Source of the DNA: Hyphomicrobium sp.
GTDB taxonomy: Bacteria; Pseudomonadota; Alphaproteobacteria; Rhizobiales; Hyphomicrobiaceae
Assembly (NCBI GenBank): GCA_003987725.1
Contig: RXJH01000003.1
Location: 1 to 64,000 of the forward strand
DNA: 64,000 bases
Direction of reading: 5' to 3'
The notes under the pieces are model-generated. The model had not been told where the DNA came from. It did not search any database and saw only the letters and a program-made list of their open reading frames with translations. The first letter of the stretch is position 1, and the number at the start of each line of letters is the position of its first letter. The position numbers and the translations under genes are program-made. Of the stretch, positions 1-20,832 are shown in pieces.

Positions 1-27
1 AAGCAAGCTGCGCAGATGAGATGCTGC

Positions 28-1461
28 TTAGGCAAATTGGCTTGAGCATGATCGGTAAGGGGCATACCACCCGTTCGGCTTGATCTTGCTGAAGTCGATA
101 GGGAACTGCAGCTTCATCAGAACTTCGTACTTGGCCTGAATGCCTGGCCCTCGAGAATAGGTCCTAACGCCCTCGCTCTGTCGCGCTGGACTGTGGCCGC
201 AGAGGGCATTGACAACATATTCTTCTTCACCTGCATCAAACAGCATGGTCTGAAGCGTATGACGGAAGGAATGGAAATCCAGTTTGTTGTGGGTATCGCT
301 TTTGATTCCGAGCCCTTCCTTGTAGCGATTGAAGCGCTTTGAAAAGCCGCCGAACTCACCGCGTTTGTTGCGCTCTTCGTCGGCAAATAAGCGCACTTCC
401 TTGGCCGCCTTCACGCCTTCGACGAAGTCAAGGAAGCCAAGCTGAATGAGGGTCGGGTGCAATGGTACTTCTCGCGCGCTCGAATGCGTCTTAAGCCGCT
501 TGTCTGCATCAGAATTGATGTCGAGCAACCAAAGTCCGGTTTCCGTGTCTTTACGGACATCCGTGAGTTCGAGCTGGCACAGCTCTGCTTCTCGTGCGCC
601 TGTAAAGAGTCCCAGGAGTGGCACCCAGTAGTCGCTTCCGCGTCTAAAGGTACCGCCCGTGTAAGCTTCGGCTTCGAACAGCGTCGTGAGCTGTTGCTGT
701 GAGAAGGCCTTCTTCTTGGTCTTGATCCTCGGCTTCTTGAGGAGCGGCTTCAGGATGCTGTGGAAGTTGCAACGAAGCGGGTATTGCTGGGCTTCGCACC
801 AAGCCAGGAACATATTCGTGGCCTGCGCATGCGAAAATACGGTCTTAGCCGAGAGAGTCGGACTAGGAACCTTTAAGATGTCCTCGATAGATCGTGGGTC
901 TATGCTGTCGATACGGGTTGGCAGCCGTGGCAAGGTGTCGACGTAGGCGCGAACATCCTTCGGGGTAAGGCCAGAAATCTTGAAATTCGGACGCCCATCG
1001 GCAACGATTTTGAGGAAAAGCTTGCACTGGGCGCCGTATTTGTCGGCGGTGGCAGCCGTCGTTGATTGCTTCTTGCTGTCGACGAAGCGCTCAATGGCTC
1101 TATCAATGAGCTCGTCAAAGCTATCTAACGGTGCGCTGTACGGTTGCGGGGGTGCTGCAGGCCTGGTTTTAGCGAGCTCTGAGGGCGCCAGGGGGGACGA
1201 GCGACGAGAAGGATCTGCAGAAGGTGACGACGGTAGCGCGGGAACCTCTGGTGCTGAAAGAGACGCCATATGATCGAGAGCAATAAGGTAATCTTGAAAG
1301 TCTTCGGCTGAGAGCCATTCCAAGAGAGCATCGACAGCAAAGTGATCGTCGAAATTTAATTCGCCATGCAGAGCGATAAGCGCGAGACCTCGTTGATAGC
1401 GATCGAGCTTTTCCTCGGCGTCGCGTTCCCAGGGTTCCGAATGTTGAAAGTTCACGCTCAC
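28..1461 (-). CDS. Tyrosine recombinase / phage-type integrase (copy 1)
   Basis: Site-specific DNA recombinase of the phage integrase family, 477 aa. The catalytic set is complete: Arg290 in TGAREAEL, His397 and Arg400 in HSFRH, His423 in CGH and nucleophile Tyr435 in GVRTY. Residues about 115-250 form the SAM-like DNA-binding domain. From about residue 115 onward it is very similar to the second integrase at 5034-6587, but the first 110 residues are unrelated and include a Pro/Ser-rich linker. The start chosen is GTG at 1461. The frame stays open upstream of it with no clear ribosome site, so the N-terminus may be longer or 5'-truncated. The gene points away from the cargo genes and probably belongs to a second element continuing left of the window. 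Confidence 0.9.
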   Translation of the reverse strand: MSVNFQHSEPWERDAEEKLDRYQRGLALIALHGELNFDDHFAVDALLEWLSAEDFQDYLIALDHMASLSAPEVPALPSSPSADPSRRSSPLAPSELAKTRPAAPPQPYSAPLDSFDELIDRAIERFVDSKKQSTTAATADKYGAQCKLFLKIVADGRPNFKISGLTPKDVRAYVDTLPRLPTRIDSIDPRSIEDILKVPSPTLSAKTVFSHAQATNMFLAWCEAQQYPLRCNFHSILKPLLKKPRIKTKKKAFSQQQLTTLFEAEAYTGGTFRRGSDYWVPLLGLFTGAREAELCQLELTDVRKDTETGLWLLDINSDADKRLKTHSSAREVPLHPTLIQLGFLDFVEGVKAAKEVRLFADEERNKRGEFGGFSKRFNRYKEGLGIKSDTHNKLDFHSFRHTLQTMLFDAGEEEYVVNALCGHSPARQSEGVRTYSRGPGIQAKYEVLMKLQFPIDFSKIKPNGWYAPYRSCSSQFA

Positions 1462-1805
1462 GTGGCGGGCCTTCTGAGTGACGTGGATCTTGGCTGTTGA
1501 GCAATCATTGGCGCGGGAGCAAATCGAACCTCGTCTCCTGAGGTCTTCCTACCAGCACAGCTCGACTGTAAGTAAACCCACATAATTGGCGCGAACGACT
1601 ATGCGGCAGTGTTCGATCGCTTCCAGTGTAAACGGATACCGAACGTCGCGCATAAGCCATTGCTAACCGCGATCGATCTCGAGAGTTGTACGCTAGAACG
1701 CGCGATCGTCTTGAAAACTATCCGCTGACAATAAAGCTTGGTGCTAAGTCGGGCTGCCGAGCCAGAAAAGGCTTGGCCCGGCAGTTGTTAGTTCCACACA
1801 ATAAT
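1462..1805. other. Junction region with tRNA-like relic
   Basis: This stretch has no credible gene. On the minus strand, about 1509-1566 resembles a decayed tRNA: a D-arm-like CTGGTAGGA, an anticodon-loop-like CCTCAGG, a T-loop-like GGTTCGATTT and a terminal CTCCCGCGCCA. The arms do not pair properly and no 5' acceptor half is found, so it is not a functional tRNA. Its place just upstream of an integrase matches the place of tRNA-Gln upstream of the second integrase, which suggests an attachment-site remnant. Confidence 0.35.
1756..1777 (-). terminator. Hairpin downstream of the 236-aa gene
   Basis: GCCGAGCC and GGCTTGGC form an 8-bp stem with one G-U pair around the loop AGAAAA, about 30 bases after the stop codon at 1806. 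There is no U-run after it on the minus strand, so termination activity is only a guess. Confidence 0.3.
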
Positions 1806-2516
1806 TTAACAGAGCGGCCAAGCGGGAGTAGCGTGATCCCTAGTTGCGCATGGAAGGATTTGGACGTGAGGATAAAACAATAACCCGGTTTCCGAGAGAG
1901 AAGTCCATTTCTCAGACCAATGCGGGAAAAAAAAGCCCTTCCTGTTCTTCAAATTATTCCACAAATCAGTGTCGGGTCTGATCCCCACTTCACGCTTGAA
2001 GAGCATCGCCCATTCCTCAACCGTTCTGAACACGATGTCCTCGAAGCAATCATCGGCAGTGGTTGCCATCTCCCTCGGAGCGCTTGAGAAGACGGTACCG
2101 GTGGCGGGCACGGTGTAGCGGTTCAAGAATTCGTATCGAGCATCCGAGAAATACTCGGGAAATTGTGATGCAAACGTATTGATTTGGTTCGGTGAGGTGT
2201 TGATAGCAGGTCCCATTGTCATCCAGCCGGCCCGCTGTGCTTCCGATCCGGCAACAGCATGCGCTTTATCCATCAGGATAATATGGCAATACCTAAACTC
2301 GGGAAAACTATCATCCAGTCGGCAGTAGAAATAGGCAGAAGCAGGAACAGCTTGGCCAATTTTTTTCGCTAACGCGTGTTTCAACCACTCAGTGATGAAT
2401 CCAAATTGTTCAGAGCTAGATTTAAGGCCGGGGTTATAAATTTGTTCGAGATCAGGCTCCAATTTAATATCATGTGGTTTCGGGACTTTCTTGGCTTTCT
2501 CAATATCAAAGTGCAT
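1806..2516 (-). CDS. Hypothetical protein, mobile-element cargo (236 aa)
   Basis: I do not recognise the family. It is a soluble-looking protein without signal peptide or membrane segment, rich in aromatic residues, with a Lys/Pro-rich N-terminus and two Cys in the last 15 residues. The ATG at 2516 has a GGAG about 11 bases upstream, which supports the start. The gene is AT-rich compared with the chromosome to the right and lies between two integrases, so horizontal acquisition is likely. A small plus-strand reading frame diverges from it across an AT-rich 117-bp gap that could hold both promoters. No function can be assigned. Confidence 0.65.
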   Translation of the reverse strand: MHFDIEKAKKVPKPHDIKLEPDLEQIYNPGLKSSSEQFGFITEWLKHALAKKIGQAVPASAYFYCRLDDSFPEFRYCHIILMDKAHAVAGSEAQRAGWMTMGPAINTSPNQINTFASQFPEYFSDARYEFLNRYTVPATGTVFSSAPREMATTADDCFEDIVFRTVEEWAMLFKREVGIRPDTDLWNNLKNRKGFFFPHWSEKWTSLSETGLLFYPHVQILPCATRDHATPAWPLC

Positions 2517-2633
2517 TATTCAAATACTCCATTTCAATAAACGCCAAACTGGCGATTGCATATCTATTTAATCGATAGTGAGTTTTGCTGCAAATTAAAA
2601 TTAGCTAATATATTTCTCATTTTTTGGGATTAA

Positions 2634-2867
2634 TTGGCGTATGAGAAACGGGAAATAGCTGTCAGGACTGTTTGTGGTGTTATTTCAGACCAAAGAAATG
2701 GTGGTTCGATTGCCGATTGTTCTGAGCCGTGCGTTCTCAATTTAAAGCCACTCGGTTCTACATGGTGGCCACGCGAATTTGCCCTGCTAACTCAGAAATA
2801 TTCTTGGCGAAGTATTGCTGATCGGGCAATTGACATGCTCGTCAAGCATTGGGAGTCAGACCTGTAG
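2634..2867 (+). CDS. Possible small hypothetical protein (77 aa)
   Basis: A 77-codon frame opening with TTG, with a weak GGGA about 5 bases upstream. The C-terminal half (WWPREFALLTQKYSW and on) has a protein-like composition with several Trp. It is the only plus-strand candidate among the cargo genes and fills a gap left by the minus-strand genes: it diverges from the 236-aa gene and converges on the HUH-like gene. No family is recognised, and the weak start and short length leave real doubt. Confidence 0.35.
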   Translation: MAYEKREIAVRTVCGVISDQRNGGSIADCSEPCVLNLKPLGSTWWPREFALLTQKYSWRSIADRAIDMLVKHWESDL

Positions 2868-2963
2868 CGAACAGTTCGCACCCATCAAATCGCTTTATTG
2901 GTGTCTTCTGCGGCTTCCTTGAGCTTCCCTCATTTCAAATTTCTGATCATGCTTACGCGCATT

Positions 2964-3566
2964 CTAGAGAGAACGTTCATCCCATTTAATTCCTTTGGAC
3001 GTTCGTTCAAATCGGGCCTTCGGATACTGAGTGAATAGGGGGGCGTCGCCGGCTAGTCTTACAGCTTCTCGATTATTGAGTAGCTTGGCTGCATAACTGA
3101 CGACATTGGTCAGAGAGCTCGCCTGTATCAAGCGCGCATCGATTGTCCGAACTGCACTGAGTGCGGGATGATCCAGGATAACTAGAAACCCGTCATTTCG
3201 CAGCGTCTCGAAGCGGTCTAGCGTGTCTTCATGAACAAGATAGATGCTATGAACATGAGGCGTAACGGGATCATAAAAATTGAGTTCGCGTGATGCTCGG
3301 GTGTGTGGTATATCAAGAAAATCAAACGTCATTGGGTGTAAATAACTTTTTTTGGAAAAATTGTTCATCAATTTTGACGTGAGGTGTCGGTAGAGGTGGT
3401 CATATCGACCCAATACATACCAAACGGCATCTTGGAAGGATCGAGGACTGAATCTTTCTGAATGACAGAAAGTTGTCGTGACGAAATATGGTTGTCGATT
3501 TTGCTTTTCAAGCAGCAAATTTGCGATATGGCTCGAATATAGTTCAGCAATATCAGACATCATCAA
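2964..3566 (-). CDS. HUH-endonuclease-like (Rep/relaxase-like) protein
   Basis: The 200-aa protein carries three elements in the order typical of HUH single-strand nucleases: a hydrophobic strand FVTTTF (residues 28-33), an HVH motif at 104-106 inside PHVHSIYLVH, and a candidate catalytic tyrosine in YAAK (158-161). Known HUH proteins use the two His to bind metal and the Tyr to nick DNA and stay covalently attached during rolling-circle replication, conjugation or transposition. The match is by motif and spacing only, and no full-length family is recognised. The start is ambiguous among TTG 3566, ATG 3563 and ATG 3560. It lies with two tyrosine integrases on AT-rich DNA, which suggests a role in replicating or mobilising the element. 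Confidence 0.6.
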   Translation of the reverse strand: MMMSDIAELYSSHIANLLLEKQNRQPYFVTTTFCHSERFSPRSFQDAVWYVLGRYDHLYRHLTSKLMNNFSKKSYLHPMTFDFLDIPHTRASRELNFYDPVTPHVHSIYLVHEDTLDRFETLRNDGFLVILDHPALSAVRTIDARLIQASSLTNVVSYAAKLLNNREAVRLAGDAPLFTQYPKARFERTSKGIKWDERSL

Positions 3567-3820
3567 TCTCGCGAAGTTGGTAATAAAATCTAATAGCCAG
3601 GGTTTGAGCCTGACTTTGTAAAGTGTTCATCTGCGATTGCATCAGAGGGCAAGGTATCTTGCTCCTCAGATTTGCAATCGACCTATGGAAAAGCACTGGC
3701 GGAGTTCGTGCGGCGGCGCTCATGTGCCGACGACTTAGTTAGGGCATGAGGTCGTGCTAATATTTATTTCACGGCCGCTTGAGTTCTGTGTCTCGCCGCA
3801 TCGCGCGCTGCGAGAGCGAG

Positions 3821-3837
3821 GATCTTGGCGCAAGATC
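3821..3837 (-). terminator. Short hairpin after the 72-aa gene
   Basis: Perfect 7-bp inverted repeat GATCTTG/CAAGATC with a GCG loop, about 20 bases beyond the stop of the gene ending at 3856. No U-run follows, so it may stabilise the 3' end rather than terminate. Confidence 0.3.
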
Positions 3838-3855
3838 GGAAATACCTTCTTCCCG

Positions 3856-4074
3856 CTATTCTTGTTTACGCTTGCTGAAAGCAAGTGAACCGTACTTTCT
3901 ATATTGTTCTTCGAGCGCGCGTTTCTCCTCCTGGGAGTACGTACGACAGGGAAATCTTTTGTTCCAGTCACGTCCATAGGCCCTGAGGTTCGAAGCGGTG
4001 TGTCCGCCATACTTGTTGTTGGAAAGACCCCGTAAGTGTGATGGATAATCAGTCAGTGTTTTTCGACGTTTCAT
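3856..4074 (-). CDS. Small basic hypothetical protein (72 aa)
   Basis: A 72-aa protein rich in Lys and Arg, with no signal peptide or membrane segment. A strong ribosome-binding site (AAGGAGC about 8 bases before the ATG at 4074) supports that it is translated. Basic small proteins on mobile elements often bind nucleic acid (excisionase or accessory factor), but no helix-turn-helix is clear here, so that is speculation. It follows the 163-aa gene on the same strand after a 147-bp gap. Confidence 0.6.
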   Translation of the reverse strand: MKRRKTLTDYPSHLRGLSNNKYGGHTASNLRAYGRDWNKRFPCRTYSQEEKRALEEQYRKYGSLAFSKRKQE

Positions 4075-4221
4075 TGAAATAGCTCCTTATTGTTGTCGAG
4101 TAGGTAGTCCCCGGCTGCCGCCGAACGCTCGCGCTCGGCGCCTCTTCTTTTGTTTGGGGATTGGCTCTGGAAAGTTTTCAAAAATCAAGCGGGCTAATTT
4201 TATAGGGCGTCGCTTGGATGC

Positions 4222-4713
4222 TCAATTTATTGCGTCACTTTTGTGAAGCAAAACTAATTTTATTCCGTAAAGGGGGCCCCAATAGTGTTTGTTGAGAACT
4301 TTTAGATGCCTGAATATTGCTTGGAAAATATCATTAAGGCACATCTCGAATTGCTGCACATGGTCCGCTGGCACTGACACCTCAATATCTTCGCCAATGC
4401 TTATGTTTATATACCCCGAGCTGTGCTTCGGTTCCGATTCTGCTCCGAGCGCCCATAGCGTGTTCTCGTGCATATGGAACATTTCGCTGTTATCCATCCA
4501 GGGCATGTAGCGGCTGGTCGAAGAATTTGGCGACGCTTCTATGGCGACAGAGAAGAAATAACTGAAATGATTTGGAAGCTCATCGAAAAAACTTCTGCAT
4601 TCAATTCCATTTCCGCAAAGGCTTTTTGCGTCCGAAAGATTATAGAGAGCTTCCTCAATTTTTAGATGGAAGTTGATAAGTCTTCCGGTTGCAACGTTAG
4701 TATCGGTATTCAT
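4222..4713 (-). CDS. Hypothetical protein, mobile-element cargo (163 aa)
   Basis: Unrecognised soluble protein of 163 aa with an acidic centre (SIGEDIEVSVPAD) and a helical C-terminal third (QQFEMCLNDIFQAIFRHLKVL). The ribosome site is excellent: AAGGAG 8-9 bases before the ATG at 4713. It is the first cargo gene after the second integrase in transcription order. Codon use is AT-rich compared with the core genome. No function can be assigned. Confidence 0.65.
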   Translation of the reverse strand: MNTDTNVATGRLINFHLKIEEALYNLSDAKSLCGNGIECRSFFDELPNHFSYFFSVAIEASPNSSTSRYMPWMDNSEMFHMHENTLWALGAESEPKHSSGYINISIGEDIEVSVPADHVQQFEMCLNDIFQAIFRHLKVLNKHYWGPLYGIKLVLLHKSDAIN

Positions 4714-5033
4714 TCAAAAACTCCTTTTTTACAAACATCTACGACCGCAGCGCGAAAAGCTTTGCGTTCTTCAGTGCCAGCTAGAGCTTCGACGAAGCCA
4801 AGGCGCGTGACGATTTTGAGTCACGAAAAGAAGGGCGCGGAATGCGCTTTGGTCAGCTGTTTAATAAGTATTCAGAATATAATTGCAAGAGAAAAAAACA
4901 AATTGCGCAAAATAATTGACGACGGCAGATATGGAATAAATTCTATATTTGGTGATTCGCAATAGAATATCTCAATGGAGTGCCATAATAGAATTCCATA
5001 ATAGAATTCCATAATAAAAATCCATAATAGAAT
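4714..5033. other. AT-rich gap carrying the repeat structure
   Basis: This gap between the 163-aa gene and the 3' end of the second integrase shows no credible gene. Its left part holds the promoter-side sequence of the 163-aa gene. Its right part (4931-5034) contains an inverted repeat arm and the 13-bp tandem repeats listed separately. Confidence 0.6.
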
Positions 5034-5042
5034 TTATTCCAT
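4931..5042. repeat. 16-bp perfect inverted repeat enclosing the tandem repeat
   Basis: atggaataaattctat at 4931-4946 is exactly inverted at 5027-5042, about 80 bases apart. The right arm covers the last two codons and the stop of the integrase. The pair could fold into a long stem in RNA or single-stranded DNA, or act as paired protein-binding arms next to an attachment site. Confidence 0.75.
4983..5034. repeat. 13-bp tandem repeat, four units
   Basis: The unit ccataatagaatt occurs exactly at 4983, 4996 and 5022, with a variant ccataataaaaat at 5009, giving four head-to-tail copies. The last copy overlaps the integrase stop codon at 5034-5036. Iterons for a replication initiator or arm-type sites for an integrase would look like this, but neither is shown. 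Confidence 0.85.
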
Positions 5043-6587
5043 CCAGCTCGGATCGGGCATCCATCCATTCCGCTGAACCGTGCGGAAGTCGATCCCGAAC
5101 TTCAGCTTCAGAAGCAGTTTGTATTTGGCTTCGAGCCCGGGACCGCTGGAATATGTCCTGACGCCTTCGCTCCGTTGGGCGGGGTTGTGACCGCATAAGG
5201 CATTGACCACGTACTCCTCTTCCCCAGCATCGAACAGCATCGTCTGCAGGGTGTGACGGAAGGAATGGAAGTCCAGCTTATGAGAGGGGCCGCTTTTGAT
5301 CCCGAGGCCTTCTTTGTAGCGATTGAAGCGTTTCGAGAAGCCGCTGAACTCACCGCGCTTGTTGCGCTGATCAGCCTCGAACAGGCGCGATGTTTCGCTG
5401 GCGCGCACGCCGTCGACGAACTCCAGGAAGCCAAGTTCGATGAGCGTTGGATGGACCGGCACTTCGCGTGCGCTGGCACCTGTTTTCAGTCTTTTGCCGT
5501 CGTCAGAATTGATATCGAGCAGCCAGAGACCGGCGGCCGCGTCTTGGCGCACATCGTTGGTTTCGAGTTGGCAGAGCTCGGCTTCCCTCGCGCCGGTGAA
5601 GAGCCCAAGCAGCGGCACCCAATAGTCGCTGGCTCGCTTAAACGTGCCTGTAGAATAGGGTTCGGATTCGAAAAGGGTCTTGAGCTGCTGGGCCGAGAAG
5701 ACTTTCTTTTTGGATTTGATCCTCGGCTTCTTAAGCAGGGGTTTTAAAATGCTATGGAAATTGAAGCGCACCGGGTACTGCTGGGCTTCGCACCAGGTGA
5801 GGAACATGTTGGTCGACTGGGCATGGGCAAAAATCGTCTTTGCTGATAGCCGAGGGCCATCACTTCTCAATATCGCCTCGAGCGGTCGACCATCCGAGCT
5901 GTCGACGCGAGTGGGTAACTTCGGCAAGATATCGATGTAAGCACGAACATCTTTCGGCGTGAGTTCGGAAATCTTGAGATCTAACCGGCCATCAGCGACG
6001 ATCTTGAGAAATACCCGGCATTGGGCTCCATACTTGTCGGCGGTGGGTGCTGAGATTGCCTGCTTTTTGTTGTCGACGAAGCGCTCGATGACTTTCTCGA
6101 CGCGTTCTTCAATGGCATCGCTTAGAAAGCGAGCAACGTGCGGGACCTTTACCGGCGGCGCTGGGGTCGGTGTGGGAACCACCGCCGCAAGAGAATCTAA
6201 GGGCGGGGCTGCTTTCTGCGCAGCAAGGGACGTTCGATTATCGCGGGCTAAGACATGGTTCCGAACTTCAGTGAGGTTAAGGCTCCGAGCCGGGTTGCCC
6301 CAAACGCCCGTCTCACCGAGGTCGATCTCGCCGTGATTTTCGACGAGCACGAGATCGGGTTTGGGTCGACCGTGGTCCCCAGTTCCCCCCGTTTCGAGCT
6401 GGGACAAGGTTTCGGTCAGCCTGAGGGCTTCGACGGCGACGAGAACCTTGGCTTTCGCGCGGTCCTTCGTTCGCAGTGAGATGCGAACCTCGCGGCGTTC
6501 CGTCTTTGCACGCACCCCTTTGGGAAGCACGGCGCGGAAGTAGTAGACACCATGTCGGCTCTTCGAAAGGTAGGTATGCCCGGTCAC
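5034..6587 (-). CDS. Tyrosine recombinase / integrase (copy 2) at tRNA-Gln
   Basis: A 517-aa site-specific recombinase. Residues 1-60 form an N-terminal DUF6538-like domain (VYYFRAVLPKGV), about 65-150 is a linker, about 155-290 the core-binding domain, and the rest the catalytic domain with Arg334, His441, Arg444, His467 and Tyr479. Start is the ATG at 6587. The gene begins 88 bp from the 3' end of tRNA-Gln and reads away from it, the classic arrangement for an integrated element that uses a tRNA 3' end as attB. It shares most residues with the integrase at 28-1461 over the last 350 aa. The stop codon lies in the tandem-repeat array. Confidence 0.93.
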   Translation of the reverse strand: MTGHTYLSKSRHGVYYFRAVLPKGVRAKTERREVRISLRTKDRAKAKVLVAVEALRLTETLSQLETGGTGDHGRPKPDLVLVENHGEIDLGETGVWGNPARSLNLTEVRNHVLARDNRTSLAAQKAAPPLDSLAAVVPTPTPAPPVKVPHVARFLSDAIEERVEKVIERFVDNKKQAISAPTADKYGAQCRVFLKIVADGRLDLKISELTPKDVRAYIDILPKLPTRVDSSDGRPLEAILRSDGPRLSAKTIFAHAQSTNMFLTWCEAQQYPVRFNFHSILKPLLKKPRIKSKKKVFSAQQLKTLFESEPYSTGTFKRASDYWVPLLGLFTGAREAELCQLETNDVRQDAAAGLWLLDINSDDGKRLKTGASAREVPVHPTLIELGFLEFVDGVRASETSRLFEADQRNKRGEFSGFSKRFNRYKEGLGIKSGPSHKLDFHSFRHTLQTMLFDAGEEEYVVNALCGHNPAQRSEGVRTYSSGPGLEAKYKLLLKLKFGIDFRTVQRNGWMPDPSWME

Positions 6588-6674
6588 GAAGTGTCTCCCC
6601 TCGATGGATCACTCCATGCTTCAGAGGCCACCTAAGCGCGTTAACACTTTGATTGTCTGGGAGACTTTTGAGCT

Positions 6675-6748
6675 TGGCTGGGGGACTAGGATTCGAACCT
6701 AGACAGGCAGAGTCAGAGTCTGCAGTCCTACCATTAGACGATCCCCCA
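6675..6748 (-). tRNA. tRNA-Gln (anticodon CTG)
   Basis: A full cloverleaf reads on the minus strand: acceptor TGGGGGA paired with TCCCCCA, anticodon stem GCAGA/TCTGC around CTCTGAC (anticodon CUG, reading CAG), T-loop GGTTCGAATCC and an encoded GCCA end. The 3' end faces the adjacent integrase, so it is the probable integration site. I found no second copy of its 3' end in the window, so the far attachment site is probably left of base 1. Confidence 0.95.
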
Positions 6749-6929
6749 AAGCCGGGATCAGGCGGTGCGTTGGCCGCCGGAGCGCGGGTCATAGCAGCAG
6801 CCTCCCGCGTCTGCAAGCGCGGCAACCGGGGTCTTCCTGACGCGGTTCCCTCTTTTCAACATCGGGCGCTTCGTAGGCCGGATTTCGCCGAACCGGAGCG
6901 CGACGGATTTATCGGCTCCACCCGTGCGA

Positions 6930-7721
6930 TTACTTTGGCGCCGCGAGGAGTTCCGGCCGGTACTCGAAGTGCATCGTATCGTAATGGTACCAGCGGCCGC
7001 CCCAGATGAAGCCGTGCTTCTCGAAGATGTCGACGATCTCCGGAGGAATCTCGTTCCGGAAGGCATAGCCCGAACCGCTTTTTGCCCATCGCCAATAATG
7101 CGAACGCCGCGTCGCGATGTCGATCGCAATGCCGTAGCCATGAGCAGAGCGCTGTTCGGTCCCGGCGATCGCCCGGCACATATAGCCGCCGGCAGACGGA
7201 ACGAGAAAGACATCGAATTTCGCCGGAAGCGCTTCAAGCTCGCGACTGACGGCTTGCAGATGTTCGGCGGCGCCGTTGAGCCGGGAAATCTGGATCCGTT
7301 GCCCGGACTTTGACGGAATCCACGTAATCGTCGTCAGCGAGGAAGCGAACCCGGGCGTCCGGCAGTCGCCATAGATCTTCTTGAAGAATGCATCGTTGCG
7401 CGCGCGGCCCGGATCGAAATTGCGGGCAGGGGGATTGGCCGGTGCACCTCGCGGATAGGAAAATCGAAACATGTCGCGAATATCGGGGTTGGCAAGCCAC
7501 GCCTCGAACGGCCTGTCCTTTCCGTCCGAGATTGGCAGCCGCGAACCGTCCCGGAAGACAATCTCGTTTCCTTCGATGCCGGTGATGAAGCCCGGATACG
7601 CCGCGCGGAGACGCGCCCCGATTTGCTCGCTGCCGAGACCGTCCGCGAAAGCTGCTGCTTCCGTTAGGCAAATCGCCGCCGCAGCCAATGCTGTGAGCCT
7701 TAAAGCCTTTCTCCTCAACAT
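6930..7721 (-). CDS. M15-family peptidase (D-Ala-D-Ala carboxypeptidase-like)
   Basis: Exported zinc peptidase of the VanY/M15 type, predicted to trim D-Ala from peptidoglycan peptides in the periplasm. Metal-binding motifs are visible: SAHGYGIAID (SxHxxGxAxD) and a terminal HYDTMHFEYRPEL with the HFE signature. The start at ATG 7721 is preferred because it begins a clean signal peptide (MLRRKALRL, then a hydrophobic stretch to AFA); an in-frame TTG at 7778 would add 19 residues. It is transcribed toward the tRNA and appears to be a single gene. Confidence 0.88.
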   Translation of the reverse strand: MLRRKALRLTALAAAAICLTEAAAFADGLGSEQIGARLRAAYPGFITGIEGNEIVFRDGSRLPISDGKDRPFEAWLANPDIRDMFRFSYPRGAPANPPARNFDPGRARNDAFFKKIYGDCRTPGFASSLTTITWIPSKSGQRIQISRLNGAAEHLQAVSRELEALPAKFDVFLVPSAGGYMCRAIAGTEQRSAHGYGIAIDIATRRSHYWRWAKSGSGYAFRNEIPPEIVDIFEKHGFIWGGRWYHYDTMHFEYRPELLAAPK

Positions 7722-7908
7722 CGATAAATCGCGCCGGACCGAGCCCAGATCGCGCCTCCTCTTTGCAGTGTTAAGCAACGGCCCGCTAGAGCTTTACGAC
7801 GGGGCGTGACCTGCTACACTTGGGTCAACAGAGGTCCAGATCAAACGGCCTGAGGAGCGCGGCTGCATTGCGGCAAGTTAGCGCTATACCAGGTCCTGGA
7901 GAGCGACG

Positions 7909-9240
7909 TTGAAGCCTGCAAATTCAGATCCTGACCGGTCCGTCGGCTCAGGTTCCCCCGACAACTCTAATGACGACTTTAGCCTTGTCTCCGGGCAGGA
8001 AGAGTTACCGCTGCCGCCAAACCGCTTCGGCAACGGTGGCGAACGCCGGTTTCGCCAGAGAAGCCCGTCAAGGCCTGGCATTCTGTCGAACCGGCTGACG
8101 ACATCGTCGAGGATTGAACGCCCCGCCGAATGGCAGCGTCAGAGTTTCGACGAGCGGAATTTTTCCTCCGGATCCAATCGTCCGAACGAACAGATCTACG
8201 GCGCGCTCGATCTTGGGACGAACAACTGCCGCCTGCTTTTGGCGCGCCCGTCGCGGCGCGGCTTCCAGGTCGTCGATGCGTTCTCGCGTATCATTCGCCT
8301 CGGCGAAGGCGTGAGCCAGACGGGCCGTCTTTCCGACCTTGCCATGAACCGCACGCTGGATGCGCTCCGAGTCTGCGCCGGAAAACTGCACCGCCACCAT
8401 GTCTCAAGGACGCGCCTCGTCGCGACACAAGCCTGCCGTGTTGCCGCCAACGGATCGTCCTTCGTCGACAAGGTCAAAAACATCTTCGACCTCGATATCG
8501 AGATACTGACGCCGAAGACCGAGGCGCATCTCGCCGTCGCGGGTTGCGCGACGCTCATCGATCCCACCGCCGATTACGTGCTGGTGTTCGATATCGGTGG
8601 CGGCTCGTCCGAGATCGTATGGCTTGATCTGACGCGCCTCGGCTCCCGGCGCGACGTGTGGACCGGCCGCTCCGACGTCAATGATGCGATCGTCGCGTGG
8701 GAGTCGCTTCCGGTCGGCGTCGTGACGCTCGCCGAACACTTCGGCGGCCGCGAGGTCACGCAGGCAACCTTCGCGGCGATGTCGAAGGCCGTAACGGAGC
8801 TGCTTCTGCCGTTTGAAGCCAAGCATCGTTTCCGCGAGCTGATGGCCGGAAAGCCGGTACACTTCCTAGGTACGTCCGGAACGGTCACAACGATCGCCGG
8901 GGTCATGCTCGGGCTCGAGCGCTACGATCGCAAACGCGTCGATGGAATTTGGTTGAACGTCGGCGACATTGACGATGTAACGTCGAAGCTTCTCGGGCAA
9001 AGCTACGAGGAACGTATCTCGGAGCCGTGCATTGGCCGCGAGCGAGCCGATCTCGTGCTCGCCGGTTGCGCGATCCTCGATGCGATACTGAAATTGTGGC
9101 CCGCGGATCGCCTGCGTGTTGCTGACCGCGGACTGAGAGAAGGCATTTTGATGCAATTAATGATGGAAGACGGCGTCTGGCGTGCCGGACGCCGCCGGCG
9201 TGGACGCTCGAAGCGATCGAACGGCGCTGAGCAATCGTGA
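7909..9240 (+). CDS. ppx: Ppx/GppA family phosphatase (exopolyphosphatase)
   Basis: Sugar-kinase/Hsp70-fold phosphatase that hydrolyses polyphosphate or pppGpp. Near residue 100 is the phosphate-1 loop ALDLGTNNCRLL, followed by the phosphate-2 segment VFDIGGGSSEI. TTG at 7909 has GGAGAG upstream. About 95 residues before the catalytic domain are Ser/Pro/Arg-rich and probably disordered, unlike the usual start of the family. Length fits the short GppA-type lacking the C-terminal HD domain. Its stop overlaps the start of rlmE by four bases, so the two are translationally coupled. Confidence 0.9.
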   Translation: MKPANSDPDRSVGSGSPDNSNDDFSLVSGQEELPLPPNRFGNGGERRFRQRSPSRPGILSNRLTTSSRIERPAEWQRQSFDERNFSSGSNRPNEQIYGALDLGTNNCRLLLARPSRRGFQVVDAFSRIIRLGEGVSQTGRLSDLAMNRTLDALRVCAGKLHRHHVSRTRLVATQACRVAANGSSFVDKVKNIFDLDIEILTPKTEAHLAVAGCATLIDPTADYVLVFDIGGGSSEIVWLDLTRLGSRRDVWTGRSDVNDAIVAWESLPVGVVTLAEHFGGREVTQATFAAMSKAVTELLLPFEAKHRFRELMAGKPVHFLGTSGTVTTIAGVMLGLERYDRKRVDGIWLNVGDIDDVTSKLLGQSYEERISEPCIGRERADLVLAGCAILDAILKLWPADRLRVADRGLREGILMQLMMEDGVWRAGRRRRGRSKRSNGAEQS

Positions 9241-9995
9241 CAAGCAAGGGCAACAATAAAGGCGGCGGCGGCATCCGCAGCAGCCTGAGTGGTGGACAAC
9301 GCCAGCTTCGCACGAACGTGAAGACGGCGAGGAAGCGCTCCGCATCGTCGGCGCGCTGGCTTGAACGCCAGTTGAACGACCCCTACGTCGCGGCGTCCAA
9401 GCAGCAAGGCCTGCGCTCGCGCGCCGCATTCAAGCTGCGTGAGATCGATGCGCGCTATCATTTCCTGAAACCGGGTCAGCGCATTATTGACCTCGGTGCG
9501 GCGCCGGGTGGCTGGTCGCAGGAAGCGGCGGAGCGGGTCAAGGCGGCCGAGGGCAAGGGGCAGGTCGTCGCCATCGACTATTTGGATTTCGAGCCGATCA
9601 AAGGCGTCGAGATCATCCAAATGGACTTCACCGATCCGGACGCCGAAGACCTCTTGAAATCGCGTCTTCGCGGGGGCCGGGCCGATATCGTTCTATCCGA
9701 CATGGCCGCGCCGACGGTCGGTCACGCCAAGACCGATCACATACGCATCATGGGTCTTGCCGAAGCTGCAGCCGCTTTTGCCGCCGATGTCTTGGAGCCC
9801 GGCGGCGTCTTCCTCTGCAAAGTCTTCCAGGGCGGCACGGAACGCGACCTGCTCGACGCGCTGAAGCGCGATTTCAAGGTCGTGCGCCACGTAAAGCCGC
9901 CGGCCAGCCGTTCCGACAGTTCGGAGCTTTACGTGTTGGCGACGGGCTTTCGGGGAAAAAAGGAAGAGGGACCGGCCGAGCAGGATGCGGGCTAG
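9237..9995 (+). CDS. rlmE: 23S rRNA 2'-O-methyltransferase RlmE (FtsJ)
   Basis: SAM-dependent methyltransferase that modifies U2552 of 23S rRNA late in 50S assembly. Visible are the SAM motif IDLGAAPGGWSQ, DMAAPTVGHAKTDH with the catalytic Asp, and KVFQGG with the catalytic Lys. The N-terminal 35 residues are Gly/Ser/Arg/Lys-rich, as usual in alphaproteobacterial copies. GTG at 9237 overlaps the ppx stop. The C-terminal tail is charged (KKEEGPAEQ). Confidence 0.95.
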   Translation: MTSKGNNKGGGGIRSSLSGGQRQLRTNVKTARKRSASSARWLERQLNDPYVAASKQQGLRSRAAFKLREIDARYHFLKPGQRIIDLGAAPGGWSQEAAERVKAAEGKGQVVAIDYLDFEPIKGVEIIQMDFTDPDAEDLLKSRLRGGRADIVLSDMAAPTVGHAKTDHIRIMGLAEAAAAFAADVLEPGGVFLCKVFQGGTERDLLDALKRDFKVVRHVKPPASRSDSSELYVLATGFRGKKEEGPAEQDAG

Positions 9996-10159
9996 TGGCC
10001 TTGCTTCCCTTAGCACCGTGGCGGGAGCTACGCTCACATGCCCGCCAGCGGCCGAATCAGAAGCAAATCTCATGGGGGCTTTGAACCCCGTGCCGTCCGT
10101 TTGACAGCATTCTGCGACACCCCAATGACGACCGGGGCGCATTTTCCGCACTCCGTTGA

Positions 10160-11809
<1,650 letters not shown>

Positions 11810-11859
11810 GCTATTGAACCCGGAATTCGAACGAAGCGAACCGGCCAGAGGGAACATCA

Positions 11860-12282
11860 ATGACGGTCACTGATTTCCTGTTGCCGGTTTTCGTCGAAGT
11901 GGGGCTGACGTTGGTGCTCCTCGTTATGATGGCGATGGCGCGTACCAGATGTCTTACGAACGGCGAAGTCCGGCCGGGCGACATTGCGCTCGGTGAGCAG
12001 AAGTGGCCGACGAAGGTGACGCAGTATGCCAACGCCTTCAGAAACCAGTTCGAGCTCCCGGTCCTCTTTTATGTGCTCGTCGCCTTCATCTTGATCACTA
12101 GGGTCGGCGACGTGCTGCTGCTGGTTCTGGCGTGGTGCTTCGTCGTCACGCGCATCATCCACGCCTACATCCACGTGACGTACAACACCGTCCGCCATCG
12201 GGGAGCCATTTTTGGCCTTGGTGCGGTGGCGCTGATCGCGATGTGGATCGTCTTCGCCATTAAAATCCTGACCGGAATCTGA
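11860..12282 (+). CDS. MAPEG-family membrane protein
   Basis: A 140-aa protein with four predicted membrane helices and the family signature of an Asn/Arg/Glu-containing segment after helix 1 (AFRNQFELPVLFYVL). The MAPEG family includes glutathione-dependent membrane enzymes, but bacterial members of this type mostly have no known substrate. The start has GAGGGA 7 bases upstream. It lies 50 bp after guaB and 38 bp before rsmB on the same strand, so it may be co-transcribed. Confidence 0.88.
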   Translation: MTVTDFLLPVFVEVGLTLVLLVMMAMARTRCLTNGEVRPGDIALGEQKWPTKVTQYANAFRNQFELPVLFYVLVAFILITRVGDVLLLVLAWCFVVTRIIHAYIHVTYNTVRHRGAIFGLGAVALIAMWIVFAIKILTGI

Positions 12283-12320
12283 GACCGGCATCCGAAACTG
12301 GCACCTGAAATGATCTCTAT

Positions 12321-13610
12321 ATGAAACCCGGCGCACGCATCGCTGCGGCGATTGAGGTATTGGAATCCATCCTCAATCGCTATCAGCCCGTTTCGATTGC
12401 TTTGACCGACTGGGGCAAGGCGCACCGCTTCGCGGGTTCCGGAGACCGCAACGCCATCGGCGGAATGGTCTACGACGCCCTGCGCCGCCGCGCCTCGATC
12501 GCCTGGGCGCTCGGCGCCGACACGCCGCGCTCGCTCGCCATCGGTGCCGCGTCTTCGGCGCTGGGCCTGACGCCGGAAGCCGTCATCGCCGCCTGCGACG
12601 GAGCCGATCATTCGCCCGAGCCGTTGACCGATGCCGAAAAAGCCGGTCTGACACGTCCTCTGGATGCGGCGCCCGACCATGTCCAAGCCGACATTCCCGA
12701 ATGGTTGTGGCCGGCGTTTTCCGCCCAGTTTGGAGAGCGTGCTGTCGCCGAAGGCCAAGCCATGGCCCGCCGCGCGCCCGCCGATCTGAGGGTCAATACG
12801 CTGAAGGCGACGCGCGAAAAGGTCCTGAAGGCACTTGCGAGTTTCGGCGCCGAGCCGTGCGCCATTTCCCCGATCGGCGTCCGCGTGCCCCCGCCCGTCG
12901 GCGCGCAGCGTACGCCCAACCTGCAGGCCGAAGCGGCATTCCAGGCGGGCTGGTTCGAAATCCAGGACGAGGGCTCGCAGATCGCCGCGCTGCTCTCAGG
13001 CGCCGGGCCGAGGAAGCAGGTGCTCGATCTTTGCGCCGGCGCAGGCGGCAAGACCATGGCGCTCGCCGCGCTGATGCAGAACACCGGTCAGCTCTATGCC
13101 TACGACGCCGATCGCAATCAGCTGAAGCCGATCTTCGAGCGGGTGAAACGCGCGGGCGTTCGAAACCTGCAGGTGCTGCGCGCGGGAGACGAAGCCGCAG
13201 TCGACGCCCTTGGCCCGCGCTTCGATGTGGTCCTGGCCGATGCCCCCTGCACCGGAACGGGAACTTGGCGGCGGCGCCCCGACGCCAAATGGAAACTGAA
13301 GCCCGAGCAGCTCGACGCGCGCACGGCCGAGCAGCGGGCCGTGTTGAAGCGCGCCGCAGCGCTGGTGAAACCCGGCGGCCGTCTGGTTTACGTGACGTGC
13401 TCACTTCTTCCCGAAGAGAACACGGGGCAGATCGCCCGTTTTCTAGGCGAAAACGCTGAATTCCTTCCCATCCCGGTCGCGGAAATCTGGGACGCCGGCT
13501 CGGGCGATCTTCCGCCATCCGCAGACGGCCGGACCGATTCGTTACTGTTGACGCCCGAGCGCCATGGCACCGATGGCTTCTTCATCGCCGTTCTAGCGCG
13601 CAAGGCCTAA
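12321..13610 (+). CDS. rsmB: 16S rRNA cytosine-C5 methyltransferase RsmB
   Basis: SAM-dependent RNA m5C methyltransferase (Fmu/Sun/NOL1 family). Residues 1-150 are the NusB-like N-terminal domain in divergent form. SAM-binding DLCAGAGGKT is at 236-245, and the two family cysteines lie in DAPCTGTG (Cys310) and YVTCSLLPEEN (Cys360). Start ATG 12321 has only a weak ribosome site. RsmB normally targets C967; exact position here is inferred from the family. Confidence 0.9.
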   Translation: MKPGARIAAAIEVLESILNRYQPVSIALTDWGKAHRFAGSGDRNAIGGMVYDALRRRASIAWALGADTPRSLAIGAASSALGLTPEAVIAACDGADHSPEPLTDAEKAGLTRPLDAAPDHVQADIPEWLWPAFSAQFGERAVAEGQAMARRAPADLRVNTLKATREKVLKALASFGAEPCAISPIGVRVPPPVGAQRTPNLQAEAAFQAGWFEIQDEGSQIAALLSGAGPRKQVLDLCAGAGGKTMALAALMQNTGQLYAYDADRNQLKPIFERVKRAGVRNLQVLRAGDEAAVDALGPRFDVVLADAPCTGTGTWRRRPDAKWKLKPEQLDARTAEQRAVLKRAAALVKPGGRLVYVTCSLLPEENTGQIARFLGENAEFLPIPVAEIWDAGSGDLPPSADGRTDSLLLTPERHGTDGFFIAVLARKA

Positions 13611-13912
13611 GCCAAGTTTCTGTGGATTGCTCCGTGTAAGGTTCCTTCCGTCCCTCCCGGCGACGAATGGCAAATATCGTCCGTATTCGAACTCTTCCGG
13701 GAACTTTTTTGCCGCTCGTGTACTCCAGACATAAATTGTGAGCGCACAGTCATCACCGAAATGCCTACTTTTCGCCGTTGACATCGCACGCGACGAAACT
13801 ATCTGATGCAGGCGTTTGTCGCCGGCTCGCGGCAAATCGAGGGACAGGTGTCATGGTTCGCTTTTCGCGGTCACGCCGTGCCCACGCTCGTGAGGCCAAT
13901 TGAGGTCATTGA
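13611..13912. other. Intergenic region before the SET gene
   Basis: No gene is supported. It holds the likely promoter at 13778-13805 listed separately and about 100 bases of leader for the SET-domain gene. Confidence 0.55.
13778..13805 (+). promoter_or_regulatory. Candidate sigma-70 promoter for the SET gene
   Basis: A perfect -35 TTGACA at 13778 is followed after 16 bases by TATCTG, a partial -10. It lies about 105 bases before the ATG at 13913. The weak -10 keeps the confidence low. Confidence 0.3.
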
Positions 13913-14497
13913 ATGAGCGGCAGGCCCCACTCCTTCCTCACTCCGAAATGTGAAGTTCATTCGACTCCAGATCGCGGCGGCCACACCGTCGTCGCGCGAG
14001 AAGCCATCGCCAAGGGCGAGCTGATCGTCGTCTGGAGCGGAACGCTGATTTCCGGTGAAGAACTGCACGACATGCCCCAAACCGTGCGGAGATATTCGCT
14101 GCAGGTCGAGGAAAACCAATATCTGGTTTCCCTCTCCGACTGTGAGCCGCCGGATTACGTCAACCACAGCTGCGATCCGAATTCCGGTCTTTCCGGCCAG
14201 ATCACGCTCGTCGCCATGCGCGATATCCAGCCGGGCGAGGAAATCACCTACGATTACGCGATGAGCGACGGCTCTCCCTACGATGAGTTCGCCTGCTCGT
14301 GTGGCTCGCCCCACTGTCGCGGTCACGTTTCGGGAGATGACTGGATGCGGTCGGATCTTTGGCGTCGCTACGCGGGCTATTTCTCGCCCTACCTGCAGCG
14401 CCGGATCCTGGCAGCCGAAGCGCTTCGCTCGCTGGCAGCCAAGCGCCGCCGTTCGGCGCGGAAGCTCGCCGAACCCGTCGTGATCCCGGGAGAGTGA
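13913..14497 (+). CDS. SET-domain protein (lysine methyltransferase-like), 194 aa
   Basis: SET domains transfer methyl groups from SAM to protein lysines. The core motifs are present: NHSCDPN (84-90) and GEEITYDY (108-115), followed by a post-SET zinc-type pattern with Cys128, Cys130 and Cys135 (CSCGSPHC). The C-terminal 50 residues are basic. GAGGT 6-7 bases before ATG 13913 supports the start. A second SET gene converges on it from the other strand. Substrate unknown; a methyltransferase activity is inferred from intact motifs. Confidence 0.9.
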   Translation: MSGRPHSFLTPKCEVHSTPDRGGHTVVAREAIAKGELIVVWSGTLISGEELHDMPQTVRRYSLQVEENQYLVSLSDCEPPDYVNHSCDPNSGLSGQITLVAMRDIQPGEEITYDYAMSDGSPYDEFACSCGSPHCRGHVSGDDWMRSDLWRRYAGYFSPYLQRRILAAEALRSLAAKRRRSARKLAEPVVIPGE

Positions 14498-14514
14498 GCG
14501 GGCTGAAGCCCGCT
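14497..14514. terminator. Hairpin shared by two convergent SET genes
   Basis: AGCGGGC-TGAA-GCCCGCT forms a perfect 7-bp stem with a tetraloop. It begins in the stop codon of the forward gene and ends in the stop codon of the reverse gene, with ATTT after it on the plus strand. Probably a bidirectional terminator. Confidence 0.45.
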
Positions 14515-14908
14515 ATTTCCCACCGAGCTTCAACGTGACGTGCGCATCGAAAGTCCGGTAATCGCAGGTCATTTCTTCCCCGGCGCGAATATCGCGGAGG
14601 GCAATGTCGTATCCCTCGATTGCCCCCGGCTCATGGACACCCCCCGTGTTGGGTTCATCCGCGTGGTTCATGAAACGTGCGTTATCGGCGCAGAGCACAA
14701 ATAGGCCGCTCGCGTCATCGAGATAGGTGTGGTCGAGAATGTTCGAGCGTGCAGGCTCCGGCAGGCTGTCGATGTCGCGCTCGGTCAGCAGCCTGTCGAA
14801 ATCGCGCATGAAACGCCACGTTTCCGTGCCCTTGGGAATATCCTGAGCCGCGAAAAGGCCGATACCGGCGATAGCGCTGGGACCTAACCGTGTTCTGACC
14901 ATTAGCAT
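14513..14908 (-). CDS. Compact SET-domain protein, 131 aa
   Basis: A second SET domain, with NHADEPN (81-87) in place of the usual NHSCxPN and GEEMTCDY (110-117) for GEExxxDY. There is no post-SET cysteine cluster. ATG 14908 has GGAGGG about 8 bases upstream. At 131 aa it is little more than the SET core. The changed Cys/Ser in the NHSC motif may alter activity, though SAM and tyrosine contacts look kept. Convergent with the 194-aa SET gene, their stops 15 bases apart. Confidence 0.82.
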   Translation of the reverse strand: MLMVRTRLGPSAIAGIGLFAAQDIPKGTETWRFMRDFDRLLTERDIDSLPEPARSNILDHTYLDDASGLFVLCADNARFMNHADEPNTGGVHEPGAIEGYDIALRDIRAGEEMTCDYRTFDAHVTLKLGGK

Positions 14909-15068
14909 CGCTCAGCCCTCCAACTCCCATACCCCTCGCTAAAAATGTCACCAGTCCCGAGGGTCTCCTTTTGATCAAAAGTCATTCGATTGACGGACTG
15001 GAACCGGCTAGCTCTTATCGCGCGAGAAATCGGGGAAACTTTTTCATCGGACCGGGAAGGTCGGGGGA

Positions 15069-17072
15069 ATGGTCTATCTTCCGTTTGTCGATGGGCTGCG
15101 TGCACTCGCGATAATTGCCGTCGTCGCCTACCACGCTTTTCCGGGCGCGGTTACGGGCGGCTTCTCCGGCGTCGATGTTTTTTTCGTCATCTCAGGTTTC
15201 CTGATCACATCCCTCGTGGCGAATGAAATTTCGAACGGCAATTTTTCGCTCTATCGCTTTTTCGTCCGCCGCGCCCGCAGGCTGCTACCCGCAGCGTTCG
15301 TCTGCATGGTCGTCGTGACGGCGCTTGCCTGGTTCATCCTGCTGCCGGACGCCCTCTGGTACTACGGACGCAGCCTTCTCTCGTTTGTAGGACTTTACGC
15401 CAATTTCTTCTTCTATTGGACCGGCGGATATTTCTCCGCCCCCACCATTGAGAAGCCGCTTCTACATACCTGGTCGCTTTCCGTTGAAGATCAGTTCTAT
15501 CTGACGTGGCCCGTCTTCTTGATGTTGGCGGCGCCGTTTCTTTCGAAGCGCACCATTATCGGCATCGTGGTCCTAGCGATCGCGGCGTCACTCTGGTTGG
15601 CGGAAGCGAAGATCGCCGTCGATCAGGAATATGCGTTTTTCATGCTGCCAGCGCGTGCCTGGGAGCTTCTTTCCGGTGCGGCCCTGGCACTGGTCGCTCC
15701 GCAAATAAAATTTGGCAAAGCTGCAAGCGAGGCCTTGAGCATCGCCGGCCTGATGGCCGTTCTCGGAAGCTTCTTTCTCCTCGACCGGGGTTCTGAGTTC
15801 CCGGGCCTGAATGCGGCACCGGCCTGCGTCGGCACCCTCGCCATTCTCGCCGGCTGCACGTCAGAGAACGTTCTCTTGCGACGGGCGCTGAGTTCCCGGC
15901 CGCTGGTCTTCACCGGCTTGATTTCCTACTCGCTTTATCTCTGGCACTGGCCACTTCTCGCGCTCGCCAGTTATCGGCTCGAGCGGCCGCTGAATACGGA
16001 AGAGGCGTCGCTGATTGTTCTCGCCAGCGTGCTCGTCGCGGCGATTTCCTGGCATTGGATTGAGAAACCGTTCCGCGTTTCGCATCGTCCACCAGCAGGC
16101 GCGACGCATGATCCCCTCGATCTGAAGTTCGTCTCTGCCGCGGTCTCTTGTGTTCTGGTGATGCTCGCGGCCGCCGGCACCATCAAGGGCATGAAAGGCT
16201 TTCCCGAGCGGTTTGCACCCGAGACGCGCCGTATTTTAAGCGAACTCGTTGCCGGCAACCCGCATCGAATGGCGTGCGATGAATTCGAGAACGTCTTCGC
16301 CAACGACGAGATCTGCAACTTTGGAAAGCGGCGCACGCCTAAAGGCTCGTACGAAATCGCCCTCTTCGGTGACTCGATGGGTGATCACTGGGCACCGCTC
16401 GTCGCCAAGTATGCCGAGGATCATAATCTCGCCGGACGGCAGGTCACGAACGGTGGCTGCGCGTTGCTGTTCGATGTTTCGATCCCGGGTCAAGCCGAAG
16501 ACAAAGCTCGCGAGTGCGCCTCATACCAGAGCGCGGCGAAGACGTTCATCCAGCGCAATCCGGGCCTGAAGATCGCGGTCATTTCGGGGTTTTGGGAGAA
16601 ATGGCTGGCACTCTTGAATTCCGCCAGCGCCAATCCGCCGGATCGAACCGCCCGCGCCTTGTCGAATTTCGATCAGGCCCTGGAGACGACGGTGCGGACG
16701 TTCACCGATCGAGGCATCAAGGTTGTGATAATCGGCCAGATCCCGGTGTACGAAGATCTGCCCGTGCGCTGCATAATTAGGGAAGTAGAAAATCACCGTG
16801 ACGCTTCGGGGTGCGGCATGTCCAGGGAACAGGCTCTGGATCAAGTGAATTTGTCGAACGCTGCCTTGACGCGCGTGGCCGCGGCCAATCCCGGCGTCAG
16901 CCTGTCCTTGCCCGTCGAATATATGTGTCAGCAGGAACGGTGCTCACCCATAATGGATGGCGTCCTCCTCTATAGGAACGGGGGACACGTCAACCAATTT
17001 GGTTCGAGACTTTTGGAGCGGTTCGTAAAATTTCCTGAGGTTGCAGTAGAGCGCCAAGCCTCCCGGTTCTGA
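15069..17072 (+). CDS. Acyltransferase-3 / SGNH-domain membrane protein (OafA-like)
   Basis: About ten membrane helices of the acyltransferase-3 family make up residues 1-370, including the early DGLRALAIIAVVAYH with the conserved Arg and His, and RRARRLLPA. A periplasmic SGNH hydrolase-like domain follows, with the nucleophile block GDSMGDHW near residue 433. Such fusions move acyl (often acetyl) groups onto surface polysaccharides or O-antigen. The target here is unknown. ATG 15069 is preceded by a purine-rich GGGGGA. No sugar-biosynthesis genes flank it. Confidence 0.88.
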   Translation: MVYLPFVDGLRALAIIAVVAYHAFPGAVTGGFSGVDVFFVISGFLITSLVANEISNGNFSLYRFFVRRARRLLPAAFVCMVVVTALAWFILLPDALWYYGRSLLSFVGLYANFFFYWTGGYFSAPTIEKPLLHTWSLSVEDQFYLTWPVFLMLAAPFLSKRTIIGIVVLAIAASLWLAEAKIAVDQEYAFFMLPARAWELLSGAALALVAPQIKFGKAASEALSIAGLMAVLGSFFLLDRGSEFPGLNAAPACVGTLAILAGCTSENVLLRRALSSRPLVFTGLISYSLYLWHWPLLALASYRLERPLNTEEASLIVLASVLVAAISWHWIEKPFRVSHRPPAGATHDPLDLKFVSAAVSCVLVMLAAAGTIKGMKGFPERFAPETRRILSELVAGNPHRMACDEFENVFANDEICNFGKRRTPKGSYEIALFGDSMGDHWAPLVAKYAEDHNLAGRQVTNGGCALLFDVSIPGQAEDKARECASYQSAAKTFIQRNPGLKIAVISGFWEKWLALLNSASANPPDRTARALSNFDQALETTVRTFTDRGIKVVIIGQIPVYEDLPVRCIIREVENHRDASGCGMSREQALDQVNLSNAALTRVAAANPGVSLSLPVEYMCQQERCSPIMDGVLLYRNGGHVNQFGSRLLERFVKFPEVAVERQASRF

Positions 17073-17165
17073 CGCGTCCGCGGACGGCGCATCCGAACTG
17101 CGGTGTTCGGCGTTGAATAGCTCGCCCGGCCTAGTCGTAGGCCGGAGAAATGAGGAGCGGCGCCG

Positions 17166-17615: not shown

Positions 17616-17747
17616 CGTAGGCCCCGGCCCGGAAACGGCCATTCCCGCGGCCGGGCTGCACTGTCGCAGCGGGACGGCCCCGGCAGACATTGCGGCAGCC
17701 GCCGTCTTCGCGTAGGGGATGGCCTTGAACAGAGGCTCGCCCCGACT

Positions 17748-20797: not shown

Positions 20798-20832
20798 GCG
20801 TCGTCCACGACGTAATCTCGAAGTCGCCGGGC

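Follow-up and report, generated by a model that had tools for sequence, protein, structure and literature searches.

An unnamed family of probable HUH proteins, most likely of the Rep type, in proteobacterial islands integrated at tRNA genes and guaA

HUH endonucleases have been described by short sequence motifs (PMC6668415, PMC5714925), which in replication initiators (Reps) follow the order motif I, HUH, Tyr (PMC6668415). In the AICE pSAM2, the rolling-circle initiator shares one operon with int and xis (int-xis-repSA; PMC3218068), and the combination of an integrase, AlpA and a replication gene has been reported for PICIs (PMC6092414), PICMIs (PMC10803314) and GIsul2 (PMC9376610). Little is known about how a genomic island that lacks conjugation and phage genes is copied and spread, and no description of the HUH family treated here was found among the literature matches listed, which were open-licence papers.

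The founding member of this family is encoded near the start of a 64,000-nucleotide stretch of Hyphomicrobium sp. DNA, hereafter the window, in which the following features surround it.

28..1461, minus strand: tyrosine integrase 2 (477 aa), lying at the contig edge and sharing 60% identity with integrase 1
1806..2516, minus strand: 236-aa ORF, no family in Pfam, PHROGs, NCBIfam or PADLOC
2964..3566, minus strand: putative Rep-like protein of the HUH type, TTG start at 3566, 200 aa
3856..4074, minus strand: 72-aa ORF, without a family match in Pfam, PHROGs or PADLOC
4222..4713, minus strand: 163-aa ORF, no family in Pfam, PHROGs, NCBIfam or PADLOC
4931-4946 / 5027-5042, no strand assigned: perfect 16-nt inverted repeat enclosing the 13-bp repeats, situated at the 3' end of integrase 1
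4983..5034, no strand assigned: 13-bp unit (CCATAATAGAATT) repeated four times in tandem, a candidate binding site or origin
5034..6587, minus strand: tyrosine integrase 1, 517 aa, with a DUF6538 N-terminal domain, adjoining tRNA-Gln
6675..6748, minus strand: tRNA-Gln (CTG), its 3' CCA end at 6675 forming the right island boundary

An earlier note on this DNA had called the gene integrase-flanked, and two tyrosine integrases matched by Pfam do lie on either side of it, both with TGAR, HSFR, GH and TYS stretches that we take to be the catalytic residues. They were unlike the integrases of the relatives described below (no match at E ≤ 0.01); for scale, ten PF00589 matches occur in the 4.25 Mb of the genome from which the window comes. 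Integrase 2 stops at the contig edge and may belong to a second element in tandem, and a tRNA remnant upstream of it was weighed by eye and discarded. None of the window's own ORFs matched PADLOC, and the relatives' loci carried other short repeats, none with the window's 13-bp unit. The GC content was 0.504 across positions 1-6674 and 0.613 across 6749-26748. DNA matches to the region were found in 20 of the 22 genomes of the genus (its own included); the listed alignments from other genomes that reach tRNA-Gln begin at 6671-6675, the tRNA 3' end, and in all five congeneric relatives that were fetched, similarity is lost directly after the CCA, so the right boundary was placed at the tRNA 3' end. 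Window position 1 is the first base of the contig, and the left island end lies beyond it. The 24-bp tRNA-Gln end had no second copy in the assembly with up to 3 mismatches, and the region may hold one element or two in tandem.

The ORF has alternative ATG starts at 3563 and 3560, giving 199 and 198 aa, and frame 1 of the plus strand across 2964-3566 is filled with stops. The motifs that the earlier note had recognised were all located in the HUH order claimed for them: FVTTTF (motif I) at residues 28-33, HVH (motif II) at 104-106 and YAAK (motif III) at 158-161. A three-motif pattern, composed once the family had been seen and therefore tuned to it, retrieved one of the 198 window ORFs of at least 100 aa, namely the HUH ORF, and found no match among 50 sets with shuffled residues. 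In the contigs of the eight relatives the same pattern matched 6 of 1564 ORFs, all six of them family members, and it missed the G014 and G739 members.

The statement that the protein matches no family was borne out by Pfam, NCBIfam and PDB searches. Pfam returned no family at E ≤ 5 for the window protein (P0001) and five relatives or at E ≤ 1 for three further members; NCBIfam had no match for P0001, and what it gave for the nine members was weak and unrelated (best E 0.044); and the PDB held no credible structure, the matches having E values of at least 0.49 and unrelated names. In PHROGs, the single weak match of P0001 was phrog_20451 (E 0.013, residues 102-126), of unknown function, and the matches of the family were likewise weak and of unknown function. 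By hmmscan, no member reached the curated cut-offs of Rep_1 (PF01446), REP_ORF2-G2P (PF23343) or the Y1 transposases (PF01797). With the window protein as query, no relative was found in the genome_contigs, IMG/VR, plasmid or phage collections, and the seven of nine members tried against plasmids gave none either.

All relatives came from the window's own order or class. Searched against 397 genomes of its order (its own included), the window protein gave matches in five other genomes; of the seven places listed, one (L006 in G356, E=0.007) was dropped for a stop in frame and no HxH in its translation, leaving five loci in four other genomes. A six-member profile (A1, 394 genomes) added one locus (L014/L024, E=5.6e-4), and a seven-member profile (A3, 381 genomes of the class) added two more (L047/L049, E=6e-8; L048/L050, E=8e-4), giving nine loci in eight genomes, the window's included. 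The L002 protein, a relative, retrieved only the window's own genome from 385 genomes of the class. Residues T30, P78, D85, R90, H104, H106, H112, Y158 and K161 were invariant in the six-member alignment, and H104, H106 and Y158 alone in the nine-member one (A4). These are exactly the three residues whose conservation in homologs had been proposed as a check beforehand, and all are kept in 9/9 members; the chance of naming that triple is 7.6e-7 for random triples of 200 positions and 0.0022 for two of ten His plus one of ten Tyr. Thr30 of motif I was invariant in the seven members of A3 and became variable in A4 once L049 and L050 joined. Motif II reads HxH in all nine members, with V, L, I, H or A as the central residue, and the tyrosine of motif III is likewise found in all nine, followed by the lysine of YxxK in eight, L024 having YAVQ with Gln. 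From its motifs and their conservation, the window protein is very probably an HUH nuclease.

As to which kind of HUH protein this is, profile-profile comparison with hhalign gave P=1.1e-4 for the family against Rep_1 (eight proteins, pUB110 included) and P=0.0066 against REP_ORF2-G2P (twelve proteins), with P=0.07-0.6 for the negatives (integrase, reversed profiles) and 5e-6 for the positive control, G2P against Rep_1. In both Rep_1 and G2P, motif I and HUH were aligned with their counterparts in the family, and when a loose setting was used, each of the three G2P motifs coincided with that of the family. The match-column scores were 35.1 (Rep_1) and 32.7 (G2P), the maxima of 300 column shuffles being 21.6 and 16.5. 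This signal depends on which members enter the profile: P0001 by itself gave none (0.22, 0.25), the six core members gave 0.027 (Rep_1) and 0.0035 (G2P, on a different profile stretch), and leaving out one member at a time gave, against Rep_1, 0.01 without L024 and 5.5e-5 to 0.0014 in the remaining eight runs. The same comparison bears on the idea that the island carries the protein as cargo, either as a transposase resembling Y1/TnpA or RAYT or as a domesticated form related to one. In agreement with that idea, the Y1 transposases, which are also HUH enzymes, have about the same size and place HUH ahead of Tyr, but a Y1_Tnp set (ten proteins kept of fifteen inspected, from thirty loci) scored P=0.08 against the family, the level of the negatives, in a test of low power, since Rep_1 (0.14) and G2P (0.08) did no better against that set than the family did. 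Rep_1 and G2P thus stand nearer, which leaves room for some relatedness to Y1; with an integrase in the same island as the HUH gene in eight of nine members as a further argument against it, we regard the transposase explanation as very improbable. The profile comparisons, together with the absence of a curated match, make it most likely that the protein is of the Rep type and belongs to a new family that stands next to Rep_1 and G2P, inside neither model.

A Rep-type assignment competes with that of a mobilization relaxase, HUH chemistry being common to both kinds. The island would then be an integrative mobilizable element (IME), nicked at an oriT and exported as one strand by helper conjugation. 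IMEs have an integrase, may or may not have a relaxase, and lack the mating pore (PMC11389934), and in the ORF lists of the islands no transfer apparatus was recognised by eye. On the other hand, no member matched a MOB relaxase family in Pfam or NCBIfam, and the nearest profiles among those compared, a set without relaxase profiles, were replication initiators. In classical relaxases the Tyr as a rule stands ahead of HUH, as in TrwC. The tyrosines of TrwC are at positions 18 and 26 (PMC5714925), whereas the Tyr of the family follows HUH, and we consider a relaxase unlikely.

The earlier note had further suggested that the protein and the integrases could define a small element. An element with two ends is seen among the relatives, seven of the nine members lying in islands delimited by direct repeats at both ends (2.96-30.7 kb), while for the window itself, with only its right end in view and its left end off the contig, the word small is unsupported. 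The delimited islands are as follows.

tRNA-Gly island: 15.7 kb, exact repeat of 45 bp at the tRNA 3' end
tRNA-Arg island (first): 19.8 kb, exact repeat of 50 bp at the tRNA 3' end
tRNA-Met island: 30.7 kb, exact repeat of 46 bp at the tRNA 3' end
tRNA-Phe island: 27.1 kb, exact repeat of 47 bp at the tRNA 3' end
tRNA-Arg island (second): 13.7 kb, repeat with 2 mismatches in 22
tRNA-Glu island: 18.1 kb, exact repeat of 17 bp
putative guaA element, L024:8765-11724: 2.96 kb, 11-bp repeat; contains the HUH gene beside an integrase and a handful of small ORFs

The GC content of the island was below that of its flanks in six of the seven, the exception being the tRNA-Met island. By itself, the 11-bp repeat of the guaA element has a chance estimate of about 0.08 for the stretch searched; it corresponds to the end of guaA and contains GAGTGGGA, and the GC drop agrees with it. 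ARAGORN and Rfam found no tRNA in the L019, L021 and L022 loci, and the larger contigs revealed it, intact, at each island's far end. In G739, a tRNA-Asp 3 kb from the HUH gene is one candidate end, of which no second copy was found. The sequence TTCAATGACTTA occurs 5-6 bases past the intact tRNA 3' end in both tRNA-Arg islands, the tRNA-Gly island and the tRNA-Met island (G351:C12:69367, G288:C25:2184, G351:C2:217607 on the minus strand and G722:C3:651473), and is absent from the window. Its being common to four islands speaks for one type of integrase site, and it is likely to be such a site. The integrase at L050:4554-5790 is split into two overlapping frames (298 + 132 aa) and the att repeat there is mismatched; on these grounds the L050 island may be decaying.

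Six of the nine loci have a tyrosine integrase no more than 4 kb away from the HUH gene, that of L050 scoring under the Pfam cut-off. In L023/L052 the distance is 16 kb, and in G014 the integrase, found by a model of the other integrases and not by Pfam, is situated at the far end of the island, where circularization would place it beside the HTH and HUH genes; the G739 contig yielded no integrase. An HTH_17/AlpA gene was identified by Pfam near the HUH gene in five of nine members (L019, L020, L021, L022 and L049), and a model built on those five found no match in the other four loci. In the 2.96-kb guaA element, three small ORFs, chosen by eye among others, precede the HUH gene with four-base overlaps, the first appearing by eye to be ribbon-helix-helix-like. 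A 1225-aa helicase-like protein (AAA_30, UvrD_C_2) is encoded at L023:5158-8835, about 0.9 kb from the HUH gene and on the opposite strand. When ten proteins picked by eye from five loci were scanned with PADLOC, nine matched: a type III-A retron PRTase-like protein, a Dsr1-like protein, PDC-S28, three proteins of type I restriction-modification, and three of type III restriction-modification, a further methyltransferase counted among them. The corresponding regions are listed below; the proteins were hand-picked and G739 has a single candidate island end, so we claim no rate of defence genes.

Candidate anti-phage defence genes: L118:9539-12835, L133:12286-16098, L020:9680-11986, L052:7967-14950 and L049:9313-16582

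This content recalls phage satellites, and a PICI- or PICMI-like island could employ the HUH protein to make concatemers for packaging by a helper phage. The PICMI core consists of int, AlpA/HTH_17 and a replication gene, and PICMI DNA bands have been read as consistent with a rolling-circle mode (PMC10803314); the AlpA/HTH_17 genes of five members and the candidate defence genes of five loci fit such a picture. Measured by the criteria for PICMIs, several relatives possess an integrase and AlpA/HTH_17, and no AlpA was found in the window, where the model from the five relatives' genes had no match in the island. Against a satellite, no primase or packaging gene was recognised in the minority of island proteins scanned, and no relative appeared in six IMG/VR scans (with single proteins or a three-member alignment) or in tblastn searches of phages with two members, searches whose reach extends to close relatives only. 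We judge this explanation quite unlikely.

The reading we prefer, with a probability of roughly 0.6, is that the Rep-like HUH nuclease starts rolling-circle copying of the excised island. It builds on the order motif I, HUH, Tyr, as in Reps, on the three invariant residues, on the similarity to Rep_1 and G2P, on the repeat-bounded islands with integrases and AlpA/HTH_17 genes among the relatives, and on the parallels with pSAM2-type AICEs, PICIs, PICMIs and GIsul2. In this model, the replication module of a tRNA-integrated island would be an HUH endonuclease that stands alone, belongs to the Rep type and has a single conserved tyrosine. The tyrosine integrase, assisted in several relatives by the HTH_17/AlpA-like factor, would excise the island as a double-stranded circle; His104 and His106 would hold a metal ion while Tyr158 would nick one strand at the origin, the protein remaining attached to the 5' end; host helicase and polymerase would replicate the circle by the rolling-circle route; and the integrase would return it into the tRNA 3' end. 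Nicking, rolling-circle copying, excision and action on its own island are steps that we infer, as is the suggestion of the earlier note that the element replicates or moves as a single strand. Regarding the origin, no conserved nick site was found near the nine HUH genes, nick-like words being inconsistent between members, and no 8-base word was present in more than four of their nine upstream regions. This counts against the preferred reading, as do the dependence of the hhalign signal on its members, the YAVQ of L024, the variable Thr30 and, for the window's island, the lack of an AlpA/HTH_17 match, integrases unlike those of the relatives and a left end beyond the assembly.

A new replication module for islands of the int/AlpA type is the best explanation of the HUH family. 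More tentatively, and with doubts that we hold to be somewhat the stronger, the unnamed initiator family may define a class of integrative elements in proteobacteria, composed of int, HUH and often AlpA/HTH_17, that reside as islands at tRNA genes or guaA, excise, copy themselves by rolling circle, can be as small as 2.96 kb and ferry anti-phage defence genes. If this is true, the conserved HUH initiator would provide a replication route for islands of this kind and a marker with which to find others, and it predicts island circles nicked at one site and single-stranded intermediates. Given the candidate defence genes at five loci, the family may also help to explain how such genes move.

Compared with known systems, the family resembles Rep_1 (PF01446), the initiators of pUB110/pC194-type plasmids, in having motif I and HUH in register, and differs in being shorter (about 174-259 aa), in residing in chromosomal islands and in lacking an hmmscan or plasmid match (7/9 tried). 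Motifs I and II also align with those of REP_ORF2-G2P (PF23343), as does motif III at the loose setting, but there was no hmmscan match and several proteins found with the G2P model are longer. Integrated pCRESS plasmids are likewise bacterial elements with HUH Reps (Kazlauskas 2019, PMC6668415); those Reps have a helicase domain (PMC6668415), for which the window protein is presumably too short. The AICEs, exemplified by pSAM2, share the integrase acting at tRNA 3' ends and the rolling-circle initiator (PMC3218068), whereas they belong to Actinobacteria, use other Rep families and carry conjugation genes, none of which were recognised in the HUH islands. Closest in gene content are the arrangements int-alpA-pri/rep of PICIs (PMC6092414), int-alpA-prim of PICMIs (PMC10803314) and int-alpA-repA/C of GIsul2 (PMC9376610), which have in common with our islands an integrase, an AlpA-like HTH protein and a replication gene; where these encode a primase or RepA/C, the replication gene of the HUH islands would be the HUH protein itself. 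With GIsul2 the likeness extends to the integration site, as its guaA site GAGTGGGA (PMC9376610) is contained in the 11-bp repeat that bounds the putative 2.96-kb element.
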